From an uncultured Chlorobiota bacterium (GTDB lineage: Bacteria; Bacteroidota; Ignavibacteria; UBA10030; UBA6906), in contig CAADGV010000026.1 in NCBI GenBank assembly GCA_900696645.1, positions 62,001 through 126,000 of the forward strand: 64,000 nt of DNA. The letters run 5' to 3'. A program made the position numbers and the translations under genes. Under the pieces are notes generated by a model that was not told the DNA's origin, searched no databases, and worked only from the letters and a program-made list of their open reading frames with translations. The number at the start of each line of letters is the position of its first letter. Position 1 is the stretch's first letter. Below, one piece after another: positions 21,274-33,501 of this stretch.

Positions 21274-22950
21274 ATGCAAATTACACGCACGATAGCGTTC
21301 CGGCTCTTTCTCATAATCGTCTCGGCTCAGACAATCGTGCTGGGGGTGCTGACGTACGCCGTGGTCAGCATTCAGCATTCGCAGTTGATGGAGCATGTTG
21401 AGCTCAGCGCGCAACGGGTAAGCGACATCATTGCGCGTTCAACGCGCCACAGCATGTTGCTGAACAGAAAAGAAGATGTTCAACATATTGTCTCGGCTGT
21501 GGGCGGCGAGCCGGGAATCGAGGGAATCCGGATCTACAACAAAGCAGGTGAAGTGATCTTTGCCACAACGCTTCCGGATATCCATACCGTCGTTGACTTG
21601 AATGCGGAAGCGTGTGTCAGTTGCCATCCGAACCAGCAGTTGCAGACCCCGCATCCGCCGCAAGAAAAACTCTCACGTCTCTTCACCAATCCCAACGGAC
21701 AACGGGTACTCGGATTTATCACGCCGATAAGTAACGAGAAACAATGCTCGGAGGCCGATTGTCATGCTCATCCTGCGAACAAAACCATTCTCGGTGTATT
21801 GGATGTAAAGATGTCGCTAGTACAGGTGGACCAGAGGCTTGAGGCAAACAAGAAAAACTTTCTCTTGCTTAGTCTGGGAGCAACGTTGATTGTGGCCCTT
21901 GCCTCCGGAGGTTTCATCTGGCTCGTTATCAAGCGACCCGTACAGAAGCTTGTTAACGGTATGCAGATGGTATCATCGGGTAACCTTGAACACCGCCTTG
22001 CTCTGCGCTCGCAGGATGAATTCGGACTGCTGGCAACGACATTCAACAAGATGTCGGAAGAACTCGAACGGGCAAGCGACGAGCTGACGTCGTGGTCGAA
22101 CACGCTCGAACTAAAAGTGAAGGAAAAAACCGCCGATCTTGAAAAAGCCCACCGGCAACTGATGCGGGTGGAGAAACTTGCATCGCTCGGCAATCTCTCG
22201 TCGAGTGTCGCTCACGAATTGAATAATCCTCTTGAAGGCATTCTGACATTCTCGAAACTTCTCATCAAGAGAATCAAGAAATCGGCCCTTTCCGAAAATG
22301 AAAAGAAGAACTACTGCAATGAGTTGCAGCTCATGGCTGACGAAGCACAACGATGCGGAAATATCGTCAAGAACTTGCTCGTATTTGCCCGGCAGTCAAG
22401 CGTCTCGATACAAACAGCCCATCTGTCACACATTGTCGATCGATGCGTTCTCCTCATGTCGCATCATGCGAAGATACAGGGAGTGTCGTTGATCAAGGAT
22501 GAGATGAAGGGTGATGACACTGTGGAATGCGACGCGAATCAACTTCAGCAGGCAGTGCTTGCCCTGATTGGCAATGCGGTTGAAGCAATCACGAGCGCTC
22601 ATCCTGATGAGAATTCAGAAGGCAAAGTGGAAATCAGTCTCGACGGTACGCATCCCGATCAGGTTGTGATCCGCGTGCATGACAACGGAATCGGGATGAC
22701 AGATGAAGTCAAGGCACATATTTTTGAACCATTCTTCACAACAAAATCGGAAGGCAAGGGTGTGGGGCTGGGGCTTTCGATTCTCTACGGCATTATCCAG
22801 CGTCACCATGGAAATGTGGAAGTGGAATCGGAAACCGGAAAAGGATCCACCTTTACCCTGATTCTGCCGCGGAAACAACCCGCCAAGGTCCGTGAAGAAC
22901 GAACAACACCAATCGGAACAACACCAATCGAAGGAGTTGGTCATGGATAA
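21274..22950 (+). CDS. Sensor histidine kinase with two c-heme-like motifs
   Basis: A 558-aa membrane sensor kinase. TM1 is at about 8-31, a periplasmic domain at 32-195, TM2 at about 196-218, HAMP at about 220-272, a short coiled coil, then HisKA with SVAHELNNPL (phospho-acceptor His314) and a complete HATPase domain (N-box GNAVEAI, G1 HDNGIGM, GKGVGLGLSI). The periplasmic domain contains CVSCH (114-118), a standard CxxCH heme c site, and CSEADCH (158-164), a CxxxxCH variant. It therefore probably binds one or two covalent hemes and senses redox, NO/CO or oxygen. The stop overlaps the start of the sigma54 activator gene, so the two form a two-component pair. Confidence 0.9.
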   Translation: MQITRTIAFRLFLIIVSAQTIVLGVLTYAVVSIQHSQLMEHVELSAQRVSDIIARSTRHSMLLNRKEDVQHIVSAVGGEPGIEGIRIYNKAGEVIFATTLPDIHTVVDLNAEACVSCHPNQQLQTPHPPQEKLSRLFTNPNGQRVLGFITPISNEKQCSEADCHAHPANKTILGVLDVKMSLVQVDQRLEANKKNFLLLSLGATLIVALASGGFIWLVIKRPVQKLVNGMQMVSSGNLEHRLALRSQDEFGLLATTFNKMSEELERASDELTSWSNTLELKVKEKTADLEKAHRQLMRVEKLASLGNLSSSVAHELNNPLEGILTFSKLLIKRIKKSALSENEKKNYCNELQLMADEAQRCGNIVKNLLVFARQSSVSIQTAHLSHIVDRCVLLMSHHAKIQGVSLIKDEMKGDDTVECDANQLQQAVLALIGNAVEAITSAHPDENSEGKVEISLDGTHPDQVVIRVHDNGIGMTDEVKAHIFEPFFTTKSEGKGVGLGLSILYGIIQRHHGNVEVESETGKGSTFTLILPRKQPAKVREERTTPIGTTPIEGVGHG

Positions 22951-24289
22951 ACGTGAAACCGGAATTCTTGTTGTCGATGATGAATTGATAGTACGTGAAT
23001 CGCTGACGAAATGGTTCCGCGAAGACGGATTCCGTTCCGAAGCGGCGGAAAACGCCGCCGCCGCGCTGCGCAAGCTGCAAAACAGCAACTGGGATATTGC
23101 CCTGGTTGACATCAAGATGCCCGGCATGGACGGCATTGAATTGTTGCAGCGTATGAAGGAGTTGAAGCCGGATATGTCGGTTATTATTATCACGGCGTTT
23201 GCCAGTGTTGATACGGCCGTGAAGGCTTTGAAGATAGGCGCGTATGACTACATCACCAAACCTATTGATCCGGATTATCTTGATCACCTCATCTCGAAAG
23301 CGTTGAATGAGAGAAATCTGCTTCGTGAAAACCTGAAGCTGAAGGATGTCGTCAGCGAGCTTTCCGAGCAGGATGAAATCATCGGTGAGTCGCCCGAAAT
23401 GCAAAAGGTGATGGAGTTGGTGAAGACGGTTGCGCCGACTGACACCACCGTCATGATCCGCGGCGAAAGCGGAACGGGGAAGGAACTTGTGGCGCGGGCG
23501 ATTCACAATCACAGCACGAGAAAGTTCTTCCCTATTGTCACGGTGAATTGCGGCGCTTTGACCGAAACGTTGCTGGAGAGTGAACTGTTCGGCCATGAAA
23601 AGGGGGCCTTCACCGGTGCGCAGTACCGGCGCAAGGGGAAAGTTGAGCTTGCAGACGGAGGAACCCTCTTTCTTGATGAGATCGGGAATATCAGCCCGAA
23701 AACGCAAATGGATTTGCTGCGTGTTATTGAAACGAAACAGTTCATGAGGGTGGGGGGAAGTGAGATCATCCGCTCGGATTTTCGCATTATTTGCGCGACC
23801 AACCGCGACCTCGAAGTGGCCGTGAAAGATGGAAGCTTCCGGGAAGATTTGTACTACCGGCTCAACGTTTTTACGATTCCCTTGCCGCCGTTGCGGGCAC
23901 GGAAGGGTGATGTTGCCAAACTCGCACACTACTTCCTTGAGAAATACTCGAAGGCAATGGGCAAGCCGAAACACGGTTTCACTGCTGATGCGATGCACGC
24001 GTTGAAAGCATACGATTGGCCGGGTAACGTTCGCGAGCTGGAGAATGCCATCGAGCGGGCGGTTGTAATTAGTGCGTGCCCCACTATCGAAAAGCATGAT
24101 CTTCCCATGCAAACCCGTTCAACTCAGCAGGCGAACGGCAAACGCCTTGAGGATATTGAGAAGAAGCACATTGAGGAAATCCTTAACGAAACCGGCTGGA
24201 ATATCAGCCGCAGCGCCGGGATCCTCGATATCGACAGGGTAACCCTCTACCACAAAATTGAGAAATTCGGCCTGAAGCGGAATCAATGA
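22943..24289 (+). CDS. NtrC-family sigma54-dependent response regulator
   Basis: A 448-aa response regulator. The receiver has the acidic pair D12-D13, phospho-acceptor D56 (ALVDIKMPGMDG) and a conserved Lys in YITKP. The AAA+ domain carries Walker A GESGTGKE and the sigma54-contacting GAFTGA loop. A Fis-type helix-turn-helix ends the protein (NISRSAGILDIDRVTLYHKIEKFGL). The ATG at 22943 has AAGGAG 6 nt upstream and overlaps the kinase stop by 8 nt, a sign of translational coupling; the longer frame inside the kinase gene is rejected. It should activate sigma54 promoters when phosphorylated by the heme-type kinase. Its targets are not visible here. Confidence 0.94.
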   Translation: MDKRETGILVVDDELIVRESLTKWFREDGFRSEAAENAAAALRKLQNSNWDIALVDIKMPGMDGIELLQRMKELKPDMSVIIITAFASVDTAVKALKIGAYDYITKPIDPDYLDHLISKALNERNLLRENLKLKDVVSELSEQDEIIGESPEMQKVMELVKTVAPTDTTVMIRGESGTGKELVARAIHNHSTRKFFPIVTVNCGALTETLLESELFGHEKGAFTGAQYRRKGKVELADGGTLFLDEIGNISPKTQMDLLRVIETKQFMRVGGSEIIRSDFRIICATNRDLEVAVKDGSFREDLYYRLNVFTIPLPPLRARKGDVAKLAHYFLEKYSKAMGKPKHGFTADAMHALKAYDWPGNVRELENAIERAVVISACPTIEKHDLPMQTRSTQQANGKRLEDIEKKHIEEILNETGWNISRSAGILDIDRVTLYHKIEKFGLKRNQ

Positions 24290-24855: not shown

Positions 24856-25560
24856 CTAACTTCTTCCGTAGAATTCCTCTCCTTCAACATTTTCACCGCG
24901 AGTCGCAACAGTTGACGCGGCCAACTCTTGATTCGATTGTGCCAGATTGGAGATCTTCGCAATCACATCAGTTGGTTCGTGCGGTACGCCGTCGACACCC
25001 GTCATGGACTCGTGTACGATCTTCTGTGCCTGATAGGCTTTGATATCGTTGATGGTCTTGTGAACACGTTGAAGGGACGAGTCAATTCGATCGAGCCAAC
25101 CGGTGGTGTCCGGATCGTTCTCGTACTTGCGGTAGAGGGTTTGAGAACTGACCGAAATGATTGCAAGGGGATTGTTGATGTTGTCTTGCAACAACGAAGT
25201 GATTTCGTCGAGAACCTGCAATTTCGTCCGCTGGCGGTCGAATTCAAGCTGGACCTTCTGCCGGTATTCTTCCTGCTCGCGGACTTGCTTCCGGTATTTC
25301 TGTAATTGGATGACGACAACTGCCGTGATCCACAGGAGAATCATCGAATCGAATTGCAGCACGAAATCGAAAAACCCCGTCGTCGATTCTCTGCTCCGCA
25401 AGAAATTGTATGAACTGAGCAGAAAGTAGAGATAGATGACAACTCCGGAAACGATAATCGAGTACTTGTCGATGAAGACAAGAAATCTCGTGTGAGCGCT
25501 TGCCATGTGTGATTCATATTTCCCCCCCTTTTTGAATTGCGCCAACAGCTCCTTGATCAT
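24856..25560 (-). CDS. Membrane protein with HisKA-like domain lacking the phospho-His
   Basis: A 234-aa protein from the ATG at 25560 (GAGG 6 nt upstream); the conserved core starts at the ATG at 25506. Two membrane helices flank a short loop (FIDKYSIIVSGVVIYLYFLL and FDSMILLWITAVVVIQL), followed by a coiled coil and a segment like the dimerisation helices of histidine kinases. There the usual A-H-E-x-N-N-P-L box reads QDNINNPL, so Asp replaces His. No ATPase domain follows, and the tail is polar. The protein at 30433-30969 is a gap-free paralog over the same core. I infer a pseudokinase-like membrane scaffold or dimer partner. It is convergent with the archaemetzincin gene (27-nt gap). Confidence 0.6.
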   Translation of the reverse strand: MIKELLAQFKKGGKYESHMASAHTRFLVFIDKYSIIVSGVVIYLYFLLSSYNFLRSRESTTGFFDFVLQFDSMILLWITAVVVIQLQKYRKQVREQEEYRQKVQLEFDRQRTKLQVLDEITSLLQDNINNPLAIISVSSQTLYRKYENDPDTTGWLDRIDSSLQRVHKTINDIKAYQAQKIVHESMTGVDGVPHEPTDVIAKISNLAQSNQELAASTVATRGENVEGEEFYGRS

Positions 25561-25666
25561 GGAATGCCTCATTAATGTAACACGTTGTCGATGCTGCAAA
25601 TATAGCAATGGTGAGAAGAAGAAACAACGATTGCGGCGTGAATCTCGAACAGGGAATGTGAAAGGG

Positions 25667-26776
25667 CTACTTAGTTTGTTTTTGTTGAAGTGTAGCGTCC
25701 CAACCAGCCGGCAGCGTGAAGATGATTAGTTTATCGCGGAGATGAACAACCAGTGAATCGGGCGTCGGCGTCTCGGCAACAATCTGAGCAAGGGCTTGTT
25801 CGTCGAGAAGTTGATCGAGATAGAGTGTGATGTGAGTTGTGTTGCCGATCTGCTCGACGCGGGCTGGAACATTCTGTGAACCGACCGCCTGTTGGTGAAC
25901 CTGCGCGGGAGGCAGTGTCTGAATTGGTTGCTGTCTGAATCGGAATTCCATTGACTGTAATCTTGTACGATGTGTCGGATCAGGTTTGGCCACACGTTTT
26001 GCAGCCGCATCAAGTTGGCGTGTTTTGTTCTGTTCTGCTGGTGACTCAACATGTGCCGGTTCAGCATTGCTAACCATTGTCTTTGGACGCGGAACTGCAA
26101 TGCCCTGCAGCCATACTCCGCCTTCGCCCGCCACAACACCGCCCGACTCCACCATTGCAAGATCGCTTTCACCGGAAGTCGCTACCCGACCGGCGCGGGC
26201 CTGCATTTGCAGGCTCTTTGATTCAGCAGCGATTTGCTTTTCATCCTTACTTGTCTTCTCAATGGCTGTGGAGGGAGGTTTCGCGGCTATCGCAGGTCGT
26301 GCCGGCTCGCTTTCCTTATCGCGCAGCGTGCGAGGTTCGGCCCCGGATTGTGGTTGAGATTGAAGTTCAGGCGGCTTGTCCGAAGGCGAAGTACTTTCTG
26401 TGAGCGCTGAATCGGAGGCTGAAGGAAGAACCACCACAACGTCCGTGGAAATCTCAAGCGACTGGAACCAACGATTGTAGATTCCGACGCTTGTAATAAT
26501 CACAACTAACGCGGCCGCGCTGATGATGTGAACCCACGGAGTTCTCGTCTCCGGCAGAGTCCCGACCTTTTGCTTCAGTCGCGCCTTGAATGCCTCACGC
26601 CCGCTCCGACGGATTCCTGCGATAAGCAACTGTTCACGACGAACAGCCTTCTTGCACACTTCACAAATACGAAGGTGATCTTCGAGTTCGTTGCGTTCTT
26701 CGGGATTGAGTTCGTTCAGAATGAAACGCTCGATCAATTCGCCATCATCGGTCCAATGGGTCTCGTCTGTTTGCAT
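25667..26776 (-). CDS. Anti-sigma factor with zinc-binding N-terminus
   Basis: A 369-aa single-pass membrane protein. The N-terminal cytoplasmic region has ELEDHLRICEVCKKAV (HxxxCxxC), the zinc anti-sigma (ZAS) motif. A membrane helix lies at about 84-101 (VHIISAAALVVIITSVGIY). The long outer region (about 110-369) is Ser/Thr/Pro/Gln-rich and low in complexity. A folded C-terminal domain ends the protein, with TTHITLYLDQLLDEQALAQIV and PDSLVVHLRDKLIIFTLP. The start codon overlaps the stop of the ECF sigma gene by 1 nt (TAATG), the typical sigma/anti-sigma coupling. It should hold the sigma factor inactive until an envelope signal arrives. Confidence 0.82.
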   Translation of the reverse strand: MQTDETHWTDDGELIERFILNELNPEERNELEDHLRICEVCKKAVRREQLLIAGIRRSGREAFKARLKQKVGTLPETRTPWVHIISAAALVVIITSVGIYNRWFQSLEISTDVVVVLPSASDSALTESTSPSDKPPELQSQPQSGAEPRTLRDKESEPARPAIAAKPPSTAIEKTSKDEKQIAAESKSLQMQARAGRVATSGESDLAMVESGGVVAGEGGVWLQGIAVPRPKTMVSNAEPAHVESPAEQNKTRQLDAAAKRVAKPDPTHRTRLQSMEFRFRQQPIQTLPPAQVHQQAVGSQNVPARVEQIGNTTHITLYLDQLLDEQALAQIVAETPTPDSLVVHLRDKLIIFTLPAGWDATLQQKQTK

Positions 26777-27342
26777 TACATTCTGCTTTCAACAATCTTT
26801 TGCAGCGCTTTCTTGCATTGGTATTTTTTCGACTTTGCGGTTTGCGCATTTGCAAAGTTCAATGCCGCGGCAATCTGCTCCATCGTCTTTTCCTCCCAAT
26901 AGAAAAGGACAAGCAGGGACTTGCATGGCTCGCCCAGTTCGTCGAGAGCTTCATGTACAATCCTCGCTTCCTCACTTTCCACCATAATGTCCAAGGCCGA
27001 GGCTGATTCAATGTGTCCGGTAGATTCCTCTATGTCAGCGGGTGATTCACGGCGCAGCCGGGCCAGCCGTCGCAGCCACAGATTTTTGACCGTGGCGTAG
27101 ATGAACGTGCCCAAACGTGCATTGTGTTCATACCTGTTTGTTCGAACGCGTTCCCAGAGAATAATCAAGGCTTCCTGCAGCAAATCTTCGGCATCATCAT
27201 GACTGCCGTTGTTACGAGTGACGAATGAAAGTATCGGCCTTCTGTTCGCCTCATACAACATCACGAGTCCCTCGTCATCGCCTTTGCGAATCAGGTCGAG
27301 AATCTTTGCATCGGAATTGAGGAACAAGAAGGACGAAGCCAT
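26776..27342 (-). CDS. ECF-type RNA polymerase sigma factor
   Basis: A 188-aa sigma-70 family ECF factor. Region 2 is clear (MLYEANRRPILSFVTRNNGSHDDAEDLLQEALIILWERV, with DAEDLLQEA in region 2.2), as is region 4 (ALDELGEPCKSLLVLFYWEEKTMEQIAAALNFANAQTAKSKKYQCKKAL, a helix-turn-helix for -35 recognition). The linker between them is acidic. It is co-translated with the anti-sigma factor and divergent from the DUF4139 gene across 127 nt, a common arrangement for an autoregulated ECF system whose first target is the divergent gene. No target promoter could be read with confidence. Confidence 0.92.
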   Translation of the reverse strand: MASSFLFLNSDAKILDLIRKGDDEGLVMLYEANRRPILSFVTRNNGSHDDAEDLLQEALIILWERVRTNRYEHNARLGTFIYATVKNLWLRRLARLRRESPADIEESTGHIESASALDIMVESEEARIVHEALDELGEPCKSLLVLFYWEEKTMEQIAAALNFANAQTAKSKKYQCKKALQKIVESRM

Positions 27343-27469
27343 TTACCTTTCAACTGTTAATGTCATAAATGGAAGCAAGGTGAACAGAAAAAGATAATAA
27401 TTCCCAGCATAAGTTCCTTCATTAGGACACCGGAAGCCGTCACAGTTCAATCTTATCAAGGAGTTCTTC

Positions 27470-28960
27470 ATGAAACACATACTTGCAGTCTTCGCAGTTC
27501 TCACAACATTCATCGGCGATGGGAGTGCCCAACGGGGCAGCGCCGTTGCCATTGGTGAGCGTACATCGGTTGATTTGACCATCTACAATCAGAATCTCTC
27601 GCTCATTCGTGAAGAGCGAACGTTCAGTTTGGCGAGAGGCGTCAGCAGTGTTACCGTTCCCGACATTCCCTCAACAATTGACGGCACGTCCGTGCACTTC
27701 GTCAGCATGACGGATGCTTCGGCCGTCAAAGTGTTGGAGCAAAACTATCAGTTTGACCTTGTGAATCAAGGAAAACTTATGGAGAAATACCTCGGAAAGA
27801 ATATCGAATTTGTGAGATTGGATGAAGCGACAAAGAAAGAGTATACCATAGTCGGCAAGCTTCTTGCCTCCGGCCATCCGACCAATTACGGCAATGTGAG
27901 CTACTCGGGAGGAATGATTGCGGAAATCAACGGCAAGATAGAAATCAATCCTACGGGGAGAGTTATTCTCCCAAGTTTACCGGAGGGATTGATTCTCAAG
28001 CCGCAGCTTGAGTGGCTCGTGTCGAATACGAAGGAAGGGAATCACAAGACTGAACTGAGCTACCTTGCGGGGCAGCTTTCCTGGTCGAGCAACTATGTTG
28101 CTGTGCTTGACAAGAATGATGCACGAATCGATCTGACCGGCTGGGTCACATTGACAAACAATTCCGGTACTTCGTTCAAGAATGCCGGATTGAAGTTGGT
28201 TGCAGGAGATGTGAATATTGTCCGTGATCAGTTTGCACAGGAAGGGAGAATGATGAAGAGTATGACAATGGCAGACGCAGCCCAGCCCCAATTTGCACAA
28301 TCCGAACTGTTCGAGTACAAGTTGTACTCACTTCAGCGCAAAACCGATCTCAACAACAATGAAACGAAGCAGATTGAACTGACGTCGGGCAAGAACGTCA
28401 ATGCAAAGAAAGTCTTCATCTATGACGGGCTTGCGGGCCAATGGCGCTATTGGGCGAACAACTATTCGTACCGCGGGCAGGGAAGTTTCGGGCAACAATC
28501 CAACACGAAGGTTGGTGTGTATGTAACGTTCCGGAATGATTCGAAGTCGGGACTCGGCATTGCGTTGCCGAAAGGAAAGGTACGTGTCTACAAGAAAGAT
28601 GATGATGGCAAGGAACAATTCATCGGCGAGGACCAGATCGATCACACACCAAAGGATGAAGAACTGCGGCTATACCTGGGAAATGCTTTCGACATCGTTG
28701 GCGAGCGGGCGCAAAAGGATTTCAAATCCATCTCCAGCGGCAAAGTTGTGGAAGAGACGATTGAAATCAAAGTCCGGAACCATAAGAACGAATCAGTTCA
28801 AGTACAGGTATATGAACATCCTTGGCGATGGAGCCAATGGGAGATTGTCTCGTCAAACTCCGCTTGGGAAAAAGTAGATCAATCAACGCTGAAGTTTCCT
28901 GTCAAGATCGGGAAAGACGGAGAAAAGGTGGTGAGCTACGCGATTCGGTATTCGTGGTAG
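27470..28960 (+). CDS. Secreted DUF4139 domain protein
   Basis: A 496-aa exported protein with a 20-residue signal peptide (MKHILAVFAVLTTFIGDGSA). The N-terminal SVDLTIYNQNLSLIREERTFSLARG and the central ELSYLAGQLSWSSNYVAVLDKNDARIDLTGWVTLTNNSGTSF belong to the DUF4139 pattern: a beta-rich region of about 300 residues ending in ETIEIKVRNHKNESVQVQVYEHP and YAIRYSW. The family is broadly distributed with no settled function. It is divergent from the ECF sigma gene and 51 nt upstream of the VWA gene, so it may be an ECF target acting in the periplasm or outer membrane. Confidence 0.82.
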   Translation: MKHILAVFAVLTTFIGDGSAQRGSAVAIGERTSVDLTIYNQNLSLIREERTFSLARGVSSVTVPDIPSTIDGTSVHFVSMTDASAVKVLEQNYQFDLVNQGKLMEKYLGKNIEFVRLDEATKKEYTIVGKLLASGHPTNYGNVSYSGGMIAEINGKIEINPTGRVILPSLPEGLILKPQLEWLVSNTKEGNHKTELSYLAGQLSWSSNYVAVLDKNDARIDLTGWVTLTNNSGTSFKNAGLKLVAGDVNIVRDQFAQEGRMMKSMTMADAAQPQFAQSELFEYKLYSLQRKTDLNNNETKQIELTSGKNVNAKKVFIYDGLAGQWRYWANNYSYRGQGSFGQQSNTKVGVYVTFRNDSKSGLGIALPKGKVRVYKKDDDGKEQFIGEDQIDHTPKDEELRLYLGNAFDIVGERAQKDFKSISSGKVVEETIEIKVRNHKNESVQVQVYEHPWRWSQWEIVSSNSAWEKVDQSTLKFPVKIGKDGEKVVSYAIRYSW

Positions 28961-29011
28961 ATGATCTGAAAAGCAAGTATCGATTTTCAACAACACTACA
29001 GGGAGGCAATA

Positions 29012-30349
29012 ATGAAGACTTCAGTTGGATGTATTGTGGTGGCTCTTATGATGGCCGTCTCAACATTGGCAGTAGCGGTGCCGTCAAGCAAGCCGACAAT
29101 TTCATTAGAAGGGAAACTCAACTGCCCGTATATCAGTTCGAGCGGAGGTACGGCGTACCTGCAAATCATCCTCACCACATCCGGCTTTGAAAGACAATCA
29201 CGTGAGCGACGTCCGATGAATCTCTCCGTCGTTCTCGACAGAAGCGGGTCAATGTCCGACCAACAAAAGATGGAGTATGCAAAGGCGGCACTTACGAAAC
29301 TCATCGAACAGCTTGAACGGGATGACATCTTCTCGCTCGTTGTCTATGATGATGTGGTAGATGTATTGCACCCGGCTCAACAGGTCGGCAGCAGCAAGAA
29401 TCGTCTGAAGCAACTTGTGAGCGACATCTATCCTCGTAACAGCACAAATCTTGGCGGAGGCATGATCGAGGGTTTGAAGCAGGTTGAAAAAAATGTGGGG
29501 AAGGAATACGTCAACCGGGTTATCCTTCTTTCCGACGGACTTGCAAACCAGGGAATCACCAGCCCGATTGAATTGAACCACATTGCAAAACGGCATCGGG
29601 AACGATCCATCTCGCTTACAACAATGGGAGTCGGGCTGGATTACAACGAGAACCTGATGATAGGCTTGGCAGAAAGTGGTGGTGGTAACTACTACTTTAT
29701 CGAAAGTCCTTCCCAGCTTGCTTCTATGATGAATCGGGAGTTCAAGTCCGCATCTTCGATTGTTGCACAAAATGTTTCCATCGAACTGCAACTCGGCAAG
29801 GATGTGCGTCTTCTTGACGTTATCGGCTGTGAAACTGTATCCGACCGAAACGCGTACCGCATACCGATCGGCGATGTCTACGCCAATGACATACGGGAAA
29901 TCACTGTTGAGTTGAGCGTTCCGAAAGGAAGCGGAACGGCTACGGTGGCTACAGGCAAGGTTTGCTACGAATCTTCACGCATCTCGTCTCGTCCGTCGTT
30001 CGCTGCATCCGTCATGTACACGTCGGATCTGGTTTTGATAGACAGGAATCGCGACATGGAAATTCAGGCGAAAGCTGATATCGCGGTTTCGACGAGAGAT
30101 GTTGAACGGGCGATGAAGGCCCTGGATGAAGGAAGGATGGAAGAGGCGCAGGCCCAATTACAGTCTGCAAAGGCATTTCTTGGGTCATCGCCGGCTGCGG
30201 CAAGCAGCGGTGCAGGGGGGGATGCAATCCGGGCGCAAGCGGATCGTCTCAACTCGTATGAAGCAACGCTTCGCAACTCCGACATAGAGGCAAGTCAAGT
30301 CAAGAAGGCCATCCAATACGAAAACTATAGAGTGCAGAAAAAGAAGTAG
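29012..30349 (+). CDS. Exported von Willebrand factor A domain protein
   Basis: A 445-aa exported protein. After a signal peptide (about 23 aa), a beta-strand region leads into a VWA domain (about 70-250). The MIDAS is intact: DRSGSM near residue 72, NSTNLGGG (the Thr) and LLSDGLANQG (the Asp). A further beta-rich domain follows, then an alpha-helical tail with IAVSTRDVERAMKALDEGRMEEAQAQLQSA, a TPR-like hairpin. Such proteins resemble the inter-alpha-trypsin/YfbK-type exported VWA family, which binds protein partners through a divalent metal. A Shine-Dalgarno GGGAGG precedes the ATG. It is probably co-transcribed with the DUF4139 gene. Partner unknown. Confidence 0.86.
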   Translation: MKTSVGCIVVALMMAVSTLAVAVPSSKPTISLEGKLNCPYISSSGGTAYLQIILTTSGFERQSRERRPMNLSVVLDRSGSMSDQQKMEYAKAALTKLIEQLERDDIFSLVVYDDVVDVLHPAQQVGSSKNRLKQLVSDIYPRNSTNLGGGMIEGLKQVEKNVGKEYVNRVILLSDGLANQGITSPIELNHIAKRHRERSISLTTMGVGLDYNENLMIGLAESGGGNYYFIESPSQLASMMNREFKSASSIVAQNVSIELQLGKDVRLLDVIGCETVSDRNAYRIPIGDVYANDIREITVELSVPKGSGTATVATGKVCYESSRISSRPSFAASVMYTSDLVLIDRNRDMEIQAKADIAVSTRDVERAMKALDEGRMEEAQAQLQSAKAFLGSSPAAASSGAGGDAIRAQADRLNSYEATLRNSDIEASQVKKAIQYENYRVQKKK

Positions 30350-30370
30350 AGTCGGTTCAAGCCGGCCTCA

Positions 30371-30413
30371 GAAAAAACAATCAGCCTCCGGCTTCGGTGG
30401 AAGTCGGAGGCTG
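30371..30413 (-). terminator. Strong hairpin ending the minus-strand TPR/pseudokinase run
   Basis: A 14-bp stem with one G-T pair (30382-30395 with 30400-30413) has a GGTG loop. Read on the minus strand it is followed by ATTGTTTTTTC. It sits between the convergent VWA and pseudokinase genes and could also stop plus-strand transcription, though no T-run follows in that direction. Confidence 0.78.
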
Positions 30414-30432
30414 TGCGCATTGGTGGTTGGAT

Positions 30433-30969
30433 CTACCGCTGGAGAGATTCGGCAGAAGTCAGGAGTTGTGACTCGCCCACAATCTTTTGTGTTTCGTACG
30501 TCTTGATGTCGTTCACGGTTGAGCGTACGCGGGCAAGGGCGAAGTCAATATGGTCCACCCACGATCGCGTCTCGGGATCTTCGTTGAATTTTGTGCGAAG
30601 GTTCTGCGTTGTGGTCGAAACAACGGCAATAGGTTTGTTGATGCTTTCCTGGAACAACAGCGTTACCTCGTCCAGCAGTTTGAGTTTTGCCCGTTGCCGC
30701 TCCAGTTCCACCTGCACCATTTTCTGATTTTGTTCCTGCTCGCTGCTGAGTATTCGGTACCTCTGTAATTTCACGACGACGAATGCAATAATCCACATAA
30801 GGATCAGTGAATCAAACTGGAGCACGAAATCGAAGAAGGTCCTCTTTGTGCTTGCACTTCCCATCAAGTCGATTGACGTGAGAAGAAAATAGCTGTAAAT
30901 GACAAGGGCCGAGACAAGAATTGAGTACTTGTCGAGAAATTGCAGAGTTGCATTCCAAAGAGATTTCAT
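30433..30969 (-). CDS. Membrane protein with HisKA-like domain lacking the phospho-His (second copy)
   Basis: A 178-aa paralog of the protein at 24856-25560. The two align without gaps over about 165 residues: FLDKYSILVSALVIYSYFLL (TM1), FFDFVLQFDSLILMWIIAFVVV (TM2), a charged coiled coil, then LLDEVTLLFQESINKPIAVV. The position of the kinase phospho-His holds Glu108 (Asp in the first copy), and the NNP motif is NKP. No ATPase domain is present. The longer frame starts exactly at the paralog's core start (MKSLWNATLQ), which supports this start. It lies 5 nt after the TPR/TM protein gene, so it is the last gene of that run. Function unknown. Confidence 0.65.
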   Translation of the reverse strand: MKSLWNATLQFLDKYSILVSALVIYSYFLLTSIDLMGSASTKRTFFDFVLQFDSLILMWIIAFVVVKLQRYRILSSEQEQNQKMVQVELERQRAKLKLLDEVTLLFQESINKPIAVVSTTTQNLRTKFNEDPETRSWVDHIDFALARVRSTVNDIKTYETQKIVGESQLLTSAESLQR

Positions 30970-30974
30970 GGGTT

Positions 30975-31997
30975 TTATTCTGTTATAATCTGAAGTGAAT
31001 CATTGTGTGTTTCTGAACTCTGTGACCGTGTCTGCGCGGGAGATTGTGCGGCGGATGCGCCCTCGTTCACGCGTGATACCGCACTGTTGTGAGCAGGAAG
31101 CGAGATTGATGCATTGCTGCTCTCGGCTCCGGCATCTCCCTGCTCCGAAACGACAAGGTACGATGCCACAATTGCCAGAACAATCAGGATTGCGGATGTA
31201 ATGAAGAAGCGCGATATCTTGCTTCTCTTCTCTGTACTGTCTGGAATCTCTGACCGGGGCGAAGAGGTATGAGTTCGGTGTTCCGAAGCAAAGGATGCCT
31301 GTGCAGCTTGTGACTTTGCAAGAATGTCATCAAAATCAGGCTCCATCATTGTCACCATTTCGTCGAGCGAAATGACAGGGGGGGCGAGCTTCTTTTCTTC
31401 CGGCAGTTGCTGCACTGTGTCGGCGGGAACTGCCGTGCCTGTGTTGCCCCCGGGTTGCGGTGCAGAGCGTAGCTGCAGCAGGTACAGCTCCTCCAACTTC
31501 TGAATGTACTGATGTGCCGAACTATCGGAAGGGTCAAGCAATTGAATGCGCCGGACTTCCGAAAGGGCGTTGTCGAAATCCCCTTTCTTCATCAGATTAT
31601 CTGCATGAGCGAAGTATTGCAGTTTCAGCGATTCAATCGCCTTCTCCCTGTCAGTTTTGCCCGAAGGTTTCTGCGGAACGAATTGCGGACGCATCTTCGG
31701 TCCGCTTTGAATTGATTCGATAGCGCGGTCAAGCAACGGCCCAAGGGATGAGCGGATGGTCGAGGCATCGCTCGCTTGGGCAGCGTCCGCGTCCTGCAGA
31801 CGTACGAGTTGTGTTTCGAGTCCCGCAATGAAGATGTTTCTGGGAGCAACGGTTCTCATTGTACGAATGCGTTCGAGCGATTCCGCAAGGAGGTTCTGAT
31901 CAATAAGAGTACGAATCTCAGCAAGCTGCGGAACGAGGAGATTCAGTGAAGTCTGCTGTTCTTGTGGGGAAACTGTATTCATCTCAATCTCTTTCAC
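30975..31997 (-). CDS. TPR-containing single-pass membrane protein
   Basis: A 340-aa protein (335 if it starts at the ATG at 31982). Helical repeats occupy the N-terminus (about 20-70) and the middle, where LQYFAHADNLMKKGDFDNALSEVRRIQLLDPSDSSAHQYIQKLEEL is a clear TPR pair (about 127-172). An acidic linker with EPDFDDILAKSQAAQ follows. A membrane helix at about 265-283 (FFITSAILIVLAIVASYLVV) and a Ser/Ala-rich outer tail of about 55 residues end the protein. The N-terminus is therefore inside and the tail in the periplasm. It lies 5 nt after the larger TPR gene and 5 nt before the pseudokinase gene. I infer a membrane-linked assembly made by this three-gene run; no function is known. Confidence 0.65.
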   Translation of the reverse strand: MKEIEMNTVSPQEQQTSLNLLVPQLAEIRTLIDQNLLAESLERIRTMRTVAPRNIFIAGLETQLVRLQDADAAQASDASTIRSSLGPLLDRAIESIQSGPKMRPQFVPQKPSGKTDREKAIESLKLQYFAHADNLMKKGDFDNALSEVRRIQLLDPSDSSAHQYIQKLEELYLLQLRSAPQPGGNTGTAVPADTVQQLPEEKKLAPPVISLDEMVTMMEPDFDDILAKSQAAQASFASEHRTHTSSPRSEIPDSTEKRSKISRFFITSAILIVLAIVASYLVVSEQGDAGAESSNASISLPAHNSAVSRVNEGASAAQSPAQTRSQSSETHNDSLQIITE

Positions 31998-32002
31998 GAA
32001 TA

Positions 32003-33220
32003 TTACGCCCGGGCTGCGCGATTGTTTCTGTACACGAGCTTAAGCGGCGACACGGCAGTTCGTTGTTGAGCCTGGCGTACATTACTTTCCATTTGTCGTG
32101 CCTCCGCACTCGTCGGATTAATCAGATACGCTTGAGCGAGTTCATCGAGGGCCCGGTTGAATTGGCCGAGCTTTGCAAACTCCTCTGCCGCGATAACGTG
32201 CATCTGTACCGTCACTGACTTTTGCACACTCTGTCGTTCATCCTCTTCACGCATCCGGGCGTGTTCAAGGCGCGATTGTGTGTCCCACATTTCCTTCTCA
32301 AGTTTTTTAAGTTCTTCATTACTTGGTGCAAGTAGAAGTCCGAGGGCGATTTCGCTGGCCGCCTCTGCCACGCGATCGAAACGAAGCAGTTGCCTGGCGT
32401 TCCGAATGTGCTCGTTTACAGTTGTTGTGTGGCACTCAAAGAGTTGCAGTTCCTGCCACGAGTTGTATGCCGCCGCGATTTCCTCCCGGAGGGCAATGAG
32501 TTCACGGTCGGCAGGAAACTCGTCCAGCGCAGCTTGTATCTCCTCCAGCGCCTTGTTGAACTCCGTCTTTACGAATCGTTCGCGAATTCTGTTGACATAG
32601 TTCCGAAGACGCTGCTCACGATTGAGCGTACCCTGTACTTCTATCTGCTCGAGAATGGCGCTGCGCAGCCACAGCAGTTCCGGATGATTTCCCTCTATCG
32701 CCAGCCCGGTATCAACTTCTTCCAATGCTTCGGCAAATCGCTTTCGTTCGAAGTACCTTTTGGCCACCAGGAGGACTGCATTGACGGAAGCCGAGGTTTG
32801 AAGCGGAGATACGGTCCGTCGTGTACTGACTTTCTGCTGAAGTCGCTGCTCAAGCTCCTGGGCTTCCTCCGCAAAGGGGTTCGCAAGCAGGGCCTGTGTT
32901 ATCTCAGCCATCGCTGTGTCGTACATCTGCTGAGCGAAGAGTTGTTGCGCCTTTGCGAGATGCAGGTCGTACATGGTGCTCGACAGCGGAGCGACATCAC
33001 TTTTTGCTTCATGAAATTGAAGTCCCGCCGGCCCGATCGTATTAAGCCGCTTATCTTCGAGCAACTCGCCAAGCTGAGTGGCCAACGACAAGGCTTCAGT
33101 GTGCGAAGGATCGTGGAGCAGAACAGAGCTGATTTCATTCAACGCGCTTTCGTACTCGCCGTTCGTGATGGCTGTACGGGCCTTGTCTATGAAATTCTTG
33201 ATATGGTCTTCCCTGTTCAT
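32003..33220 (-). CDS. Cytoplasmic TPR-repeat protein
   Basis: A 405-aa soluble helical protein with four or more TPR-like units, each carrying a NGEYESALNEISSVLLHDPSHTEA type pattern: about 10-45, 100-140, 165-205, 220-265, 300-340 and 365-395. The units are separated by charged helices; SAEARQMESNVRQAQQR near the end closes the last unit. No signal peptide or membrane segment is seen. The ATG at 33220 (MNREDHIKNFID) was chosen because the 55 codons upstream look non-coding and contain an inverted repeat. It is the first gene of the minus-strand run TPR, TPR/TM, pseudokinase. Its similarity to the next gene's repeats suggests they interact or arose by duplication. Confidence 0.68.
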   Translation of the reverse strand: MNREDHIKNFIDKARTAITNGEYESALNEISSVLLHDPSHTEALSLATQLGELLEDKRLNTIGPAGLQFHEAKSDVAPLSSTMYDLHLAKAQQLFAQQMYDTAMAEITQALLANPFAEEAQELEQRLQQKVSTRRTVSPLQTSASVNAVLLVAKRYFERKRFAEALEEVDTGLAIEGNHPELLWLRSAILEQIEVQGTLNREQRLRNYVNRIRERFVKTEFNKALEEIQAALDEFPADRELIALREEIAAAYNSWQELQLFECHTTTVNEHIRNARQLLRFDRVAEAASEIALGLLLAPSNEELKKLEKEMWDTQSRLEHARMREEDERQSVQKSVTVQMHVIAAEEFAKLGQFNRALDELAQAYLINPTSAEARQMESNVRQAQQRTAVSPLKLVYRNNRAARA

Positions 33221-33308
33221 TCTGCGCTGTACTCTTATTTGGGTCTCTGCTGTCTGCTCCCCATCACACTTGCGGGATGTGTCCTCCAAATATCGGACAA
33301 ATGCTGCG

Positions 33309-33326
33309 CCAAATGGCCGCATTTGG
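33309..33326. promoter_or_regulatory. Inverted repeat upstream of the TPR run, possible operator
   Basis: CCAAATG-GCCG-CATTTGG is a perfect 7-bp inverted repeat with a 4-nt centre, 89 nt before the TPR start. It could be a regulator site for the minus-strand run. No promoter boxes are clear around it, so this is only suggestive. Confidence 0.3.
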
Positions 33327-33501
33327 AATATTGACAAAAAGCAACGAGAAGAGTGGATAGTTCCTGCGCGTCCAACCTGACACATAGGAATTACAGGGCT
33401 ATTATGAAAATTTTGGATGACAAAGGGCTATATGTGTATACAACATTTCTCTGATGATAGTTTTCGGGATACAGTGGATTGCGGAACAGAAAAACTGTGC
33501 T

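Follow-up and report, generated by a model that had tools for sequence, protein, structure and literature searches.

Two ATPase-less membrane DHp proteins with an acidic residue in place of the phospho-His belong to an order-wide family in the Ignavibacteria

Results

Two paralogous membrane proteins related to HisKA

The window analysed here is a stretch of 64,000 nucleotides from an uncultured Chlorobiota bacterium (GenBank assembly GCA_900696645.1, contig CAADGV010000026.1, positions 62,001 to 126,000 of the forward strand), and it encodes two small membrane proteins built around a dimerisation and histidine phosphotransfer (DHp) hairpin. Copy 1, which we call P0001, has 234 amino acids (aa) (24856..25560, (-) strand) and its paralogue, copy 2 or P0002, has 178 aa (30433..30969, (-) strand). 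Start codons were assigned mechanically, and an alternative upstream start of P0001 is possible at 25608 (TTG). Two membrane segments, visible as hydropathy peaks in each copy, a coiled coil and a HisKA-like hairpin make up their common layout. The proteins align over 167 residues with zero gaps, 53% identity and 72% similarity (E=1e-63). At the position of the phospho-His, P0001 carries Asp126 (codon 25183-25185) and P0002 carries Glu108 (codon 30646-30648). Neither has an HATPase_c domain detectable with Pfam or NCBIfam, and both open reading frames (ORFs) stop soon after the DHp. The first-pass annotation of the window had reported the gapless alignment, the acidic residues and the missing ATPase domains, and had placed the copies on either side of a sigma/anti-sigma pair, a DUF4139 gene and a VWA gene; all of these observations hold. 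It had also presented the two as a special pair, and here our results differ, as they are two members of an order-wide family. Nor are the copies equivalent: P0002 has further lost the Asn at +4 from the phospho-site (Lys) and the His of helix 2, which is His167 in P0001 (codon 25060-25062) and Arg in P0002.

Both genes are under purifying selection, since dN/dS is 0.08 for P0001 and 0.05 for P0002 (nearest two genomes, one species pair), and neither looks like a decaying pseudogene.

Kinship with HisKA, proposed in that annotation, is supported by profile comparison. The Pfam HisKA model (PF00512) scored 25.3 bits (1.5e-5) against the whole of P0001, just below the gathering threshold of 26.9, and 28.7 bits, above the cut-off, in a genome-wide domain search. 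Among 45 scanned relatives 42 matched it, the best at 1e-9, while SPOB_a gave a weak match in 3 of the 45; profile matches to solved histidine kinases were also obtained. P0002 alone has no Pfam HisKA match and is tied to the family through its identity with P0001. The annotation had regarded relatives with an intact His shifted by a few residues as evidence against its assignment, and we found that relatives with an intact His have it at the identical position (41 of 41), supporting homology.

In order to place Asp126 we aligned the family profile to ThkA (3a0r), in which the Asp126 column corresponds to the phospho-His. AlphaFold models of P0001, built as monomers and of moderate confidence (pTM 0.41 and 0.48), contain helices at residues 34-58, 63-145 and 150-190; the dimer is assumed from the DHp fold. 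Residues 103-183 of the model superpose on CpxA (4biy_B, 225-304) with a Z of 7.8 over 80 residues at 2.6 Å, a score that unrelated helical hairpins reach equally. Provided that the helix-1 offset of this alignment stays constant, Asp126 falls at CpxA 248, and His248 is the phosphoacceptor of CpxA (PMC3904827). The structural aligner listed helices of ESCRT, BAR and ABC-transporter proteins alongside CpxA and FixL, and a Foldseek search with the P0001 models gave no match with E below 1. The fold evidence was thus used solely for placing Asp126.

An order-wide family divided by one switch

We searched the window's order with P0001, followed by a profile of 45 rows. The family is present in 70 of the 98 genomes, which are draft or metagenome-assembled, mostly in one or two copies each; named records carrying it are Ignavibacteria, Ignavibacteriae and Bacteroidota metagenome-assembled genomes. 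In a sample of 296 genomes of the phylum, all matches from beyond the order were to DHp segments within other proteins, at 36-46 bits versus ~190-237 for typical full-length members. Searching genome contigs with a single sequence gave no matches and an alignment-based search gave 24 loci. In what follows L denotes a locus, G a genome and f1-f6 families within the order.

Members fall into an H-type with an intact His and a D-type, to which P0001 belongs, with Asp. A tree of 77 distinct members, computed with two trait columns left out and with a root not set by test, has a single branch (100 by the SH-like approximate likelihood ratio test) that splits 41 H-type rows from 36 others, so that the label needs one change. 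The direction of this switch was likely His to Asp, because ordinary kinases carry His. The H-type is limited to f5 and f6; the D-type occurs in f1, f2, f3 and some f5/f6 genomes, and several genomes hold both. Rows of f1, f2 and f3 each form one supported clade, matching vertical descent. The three genomes of the window's genus all have the P0002-type duplicate, which is the sister of copy 1 there (95) and has Glu at the site in two and Gln in the third (G002).

Residues lost and kept at the active site

We compared residues over 33 D-type rows, leaving out the P0002 clade, and 41 H-type rows. The D-type site is Asp in 32 and Glu in one, followed by Asn at +3, Asn at +4 and Pro at +5 in every row. 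H-type rows have His in all 41 and Asn at +4 in 40. An acidic residue at +1 occurs in none of the D-type rows versus 18 of the 41 H-type rows (Fisher 3e-6; related rows are not independent, and Fisher values are descriptive only, here and below). The helix-2 site is His in 29 of 32 D-types, Gln in two and Asn in one, with a gap in one further row, and is His in no H-type (0/41); nor is His found at this column in any of the window genome's other aligned DHps that have a letter there. The ten best-conserved positions of the D-type include Asp126, Asn129, Asn130, Pro131 and His167. P0001 has, in Asn130, the Asn or Thr at His+4 that marks a HisKA-type phosphatase, which P0002 with its Lys does not have, and neither copy has the phospho-His that defines HisKA and DHp phosphotransfer proteins. 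One D-type sequence, L098/L010 (G006), carries Glu at the site with a His immediately before it (LHETMNNPL), the sole shifted His seen among D-types.

A second family in the same genomes provides a control for loss of the His. ATPase-less receiver-DHp proteins of ~225 aa were matched in 80 of the 98 genomes, usually as two paralogues; examples lie at L205 (G000:C7:357496-358167, the same protein as in L004) and L003 1129-1812 (G000:C33). One paralogue keeps its His strictly (VCHEFNNPLAAIKIST, 32/32). In the other the His is lost, and eight different residues (Q,D,K,N,S,G,A,H) occupy the site in 20 sequences (Fisher 5e-9 for the control comparison). Because the site drifts in this paralogue, the Asp of the D-type looks actively kept rather than a generic outcome of decay, judging from these alignments.

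Two further DHp genes may be recorded. L076 7883-8620 encodes a receiver-DHp protein of 245 aa (VTDKIGNPL) in which Asp has taken the place of the His and the +4 Asn is retained; the change seems to have arisen independently here, and the gene adjoins an H-type gene. L203 1372-1716 (G000:C30) comes immediately after the gene of a helix-turn-helix-like receiver protein and encodes 114 aa, barely more than a DHp hairpin (IAHEINNPLGV). An association of the D-type with the receiver-DHp proteins was considered and dropped, as G009 and G012 seem to carry a D-type gene without the His paralogue.

Gene neighbourhood

In the window, copy 1 ends a putative operon that starts with an ECF-type sigma factor (26776..27342, (-) strand; Pfam Sigma70_r2), followed by a zinc-finger anti-sigma-like protein of 369 aa (25667..26776, (-) strand; Pfam zf-HC2). 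Copy 2 shares a putative operon with an upstream TPR-repeat protein (32003..33385, (-) strand; Pfam TPR) and a protein without a Pfam match (30975..31997, (-) strand), in which one hydrophobic stretch near the C-terminal third can be read from the sequence. The latter gene ends 6 bases upstream of the copy 2 start and adjoins copy 2 in 3/3 genus genomes, and the TPR protein together with this second protein precedes copy 2 in all three. Between the copies, on the opposite strand, lie the genes of a DUF4139 protein (27470..28960, (+) strand) and a VWA-domain protein (29012..30349, (+) strand); nothing ties either of them to the system.

Across the order, with a crude ORF calling, receiver-domain genes occupy 21 of 127 positions adjoining family genes versus 18 of 351 positions at least four genes away, and the excess is plain for the H-type. 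At all four named loci examined in f2, a single-domain receiver with an intact phospho-Asp motif lies directly upstream of the D-type gene, with a 4-base overlap or a ~10-base gap. We rejected inferring function from shared operons, as the commonest H-type neighbours (tadA, prfA and prmC-like) reflect housekeeping synteny. A downstream partner consisting of an ATPase domain only was also sought, and the 153-163 aa neighbour proved to be tadA.

Discussion

A kinase-dead protein that may dephosphorylate a response regulator

It is close to certain that P0001 and P0002 belong to a class of kinase-dead, ATPase-less membrane DHp proteins. We favour, with a rough probability of 0.4, a role of P0001 as a membrane-anchored DHp that binds and dephosphorylates a response regulator. 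In CrdS and three other HisKA kinases the acidic residue after the His is required by the kinase reaction alone, and Asn or Thr at +4 by the phosphatase reaction alone. The His of CrdS is itself largely dispensable for the phosphatase, the half-life of CrdA~P being 2.6 min with H371A, 0.7 min with the wild type and 53.5 min without CrdS. The phosphatase reading leads because the D-type lost precisely the kinase residues (His, acidic +1) and kept the phosphatase residue (+4 Asn).

According to this proposal, the two membrane helices and the coiled coil would form a dimer presenting a DHp four-helix bundle to the cytoplasm, on which a response regulator would dock as it does on a normal kinase. 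Without the phospho-His and the acidic +1, phosphate would be neither accepted nor passed on. The +4 Asn would promote dephosphorylation of the regulator, perhaps with the new Asp as an acid partner, an idea modelled on the acid-plus-amide pairs of CheZ (DxxxQ) and CheX (ExxN). P0002, which would have arisen by later duplication and has no +4 Asn, might pair with P0001 in mixed dimers or vie with it for the regulator, thereby tuning the activity, and is best seen as a catalytically emptied partner, competitor or antagonist. In general, the pattern of residues suggests that the two proteins probably silence or sequester partner signalling proteins instead of activating them.

Several points weigh against a phosphatase. 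Because the H-type also keeps the +3/+4 Asn pair, these residues may have a role in the geometry of the helix. In HisKA kinases dephosphorylation is helped by the His, and the activity of the DHp is increased by the ATPase domain (PMC3510030). With no Asn at +4 in P0002, the mechanism cannot apply to both copies. Adjacency to receivers is only suggestive for D-types alone (p=0.08), and f3, which has the most uniform D-type, shows no coupled receiver. Within the window no receiver gene adjoins either copy, the nearest being an NtrC-like gene on the other strand (22892-24289). We infer a phosphatase rather than observe one, since the Asn pair is also present in the H-type and no regulator is coupled to the genes in the window.

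Alternative readings

A regulatory pseudokinase like RocA of group A Streptococcus comes next in likelihood, as a tentative reading. Such a protein would pair with a true sensor kinase through its membrane helices, coiled coil and DHp and shift the balance of kinase and phosphatase activity with no catalysis of its own. RocA is a membrane DHp protein that acts without phosphorylation: it binds CovS, H246A is without effect, and a truncated RocA with its catalytic and ATP-binding (CA) domain removed complements when overexpressed (PMC7028121). It differs from the window proteins in having six membrane helices, a degenerate CA domain and a His that is present though dispensable (PMC7028121). D-type genes of f5/f6 adjoin hybrid kinases in some cases (L056, L060, L118), as this reading would expect, and P0002 retains the whole scaffold with every catalytic residue gone. 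It leaves unexplained, however, the conservation of Asp126, Asn129, Asn130 and His167, and in f2 the coupled gene encodes a lone receiver, not a kinase.

The first-pass annotation had suggested phosphomimicry; in this reading the acidic side chain would hold the DHp in a state like that of a phosphorylated kinase, constantly binding a regulator or downstream partner. We regard this as rather unlikely. An acidic residue does occupy the site in 33/33 D-type rows and, as Glu, in copy 2 of two of the three genus genomes, and DesK H188E has been used as a phosphomimetic that captures a kinase-regulator complex (PMC5231405). The DesK effect was, however, seen with the ATPase domain present, which P0001 and P0002 lack; the Asp side chain is shorter than phospho-His; copy 2 of G002 has Gln; and the new helix-2 His is not something that mimicry would predict. 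A phosphatase or regulator-binding role would fit the kept +4 Asn and the lost acidic +1 at least as well.

The helix-2 His raises the question of a rebuilt two-helix site, formed by the helix-1 Asp and the helix-2 His, where either the phospho-acceptor would have moved to helix 2 or an acid-His pair would act on phospho-receivers; taken in this broad form the idea is doubtful. Its more specific version, a relocated active site with His167 as the new phospho-acceptor or as a member of an Asp-His pair, in a phosphotransfer protein fed by phospho-receivers, appears more doubtful still. The restriction of this His to D-types (29/32 versus 0/41) and its absence from the genome's other aligned DHps having a letter at that column speak for it, and, judging from where the modelled helices end, residue 126 would be level with 169, which would put the two sites at equal height on the hairpin. 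Against it, Asp persists without the helix-2 His in two clades, with Gln in L038/L040 and Asn in L052/L151, and the Asp switch and the His gain are one co-occurring event on the tree.

That the family is a structural membrane coiled-coil protein outside two-component signalling, kept for the sigma/anti-sigma system, is very unlikely: the pair precedes the copy 1 family gene in five f1 genomes, window included, and f3 members sit among varied, unrelated genes (PriA-like, EVE-like, dienelactone-hydrolase-like and DUF971-like, named by eye from sequence), but the HisKA homology, the conserved DHp active site and the receiver or kinase genes adjoining in several clades all speak against it.

Relation to known systems

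Phosphotransferases of the Spo0B/ChpT type use a DHp hairpin without kinase activity, and they depend on a phospho-His and carry an ATPase-like domain; both of these are missing from the window proteins. Without HATPase_c the family does not qualify as histidine kinases, and the D-type and P0002 do not qualify as DHp phosphotransferases either, though the H-type, with its His intact, could. In DivL of Caulobacter the phospho-His is replaced by Tyr, a residue different from the Asp of the D-type, and the ATPase and PAS domains are kept. P0001 and P0002, being without an ATPase domain, are thus not of the DivL type, in which a non-His site goes with a retained ATPase domain. The likeness lies in DivL being a kinase-like protein repurposed to sense a response regulator (PMC4211667).

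HisKA proteins without HATPase are a recognised class, listed in P2CS as 'possible incomplete histidine kinase' or 'phosphotransfer protein' and also described as archaeal nonenzymatic HK-like proteins (PMC5847659, PMC2716373). The window family resembles them in having a HisKA/DHp without an ATPase domain. The described proteins of this class retain the conserved His, whereas the D-type and P0002 have lost it, and the archaeal proteins have PAS/GAF sensor domains where the window family has a pair of membrane helices and, between them, a very short outer loop. In CheZ, CheX, CheC and the HisKA_3 DxxxQ motif an acid and an amide stand 3-4 residues apart (PMC3510030), as do the D-type Asp at 0 and Asn at +3/+4; this likeness is one of pattern only, as the D-type fold is a HisKA hairpin.

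The family is new in being membrane-anchored, order-specific as far as searched, and cleanly split between His and Asp. ATPase-less HisKA proteins are usually classed as incomplete kinases or phosphotransfer proteins. Here one subfamily has kept the His and the other has an Asp that was switched once and then strictly kept, with a control for random decay in the same genomes. Nature has in this way set the residues of the kinase (His, acidic +1) apart from that of the phosphatase (Asn +4), and exchanging a few positions between paralogues would directly address whether a membrane DHp standing alone can act as a phosphatase dedicated to a regulator.

There are also hints, at H-type loci, of kinases divided between two proteins. 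In L067, L074, L079 and L089 an H-type gene is followed by a gene for a ~370 aa protein that reads as receiver - DHp (His to Asn) - ATPase-like. Each pair is possibly a split histidine kinase, with a His-bearing membrane half and an ATPase-bearing half that lacks the His; split kinases are known, as in CheA3/CheA4 (PMC3591291).

In the window itself, a sensor kinase at 21274-22950 has a CVSCH motif (CxxCH, a possible haem c site) in its sensor part. It is followed by the NtrC-like regulator and a small M54 peptidase, and a similar gene order is found near the H-type gene in L085.

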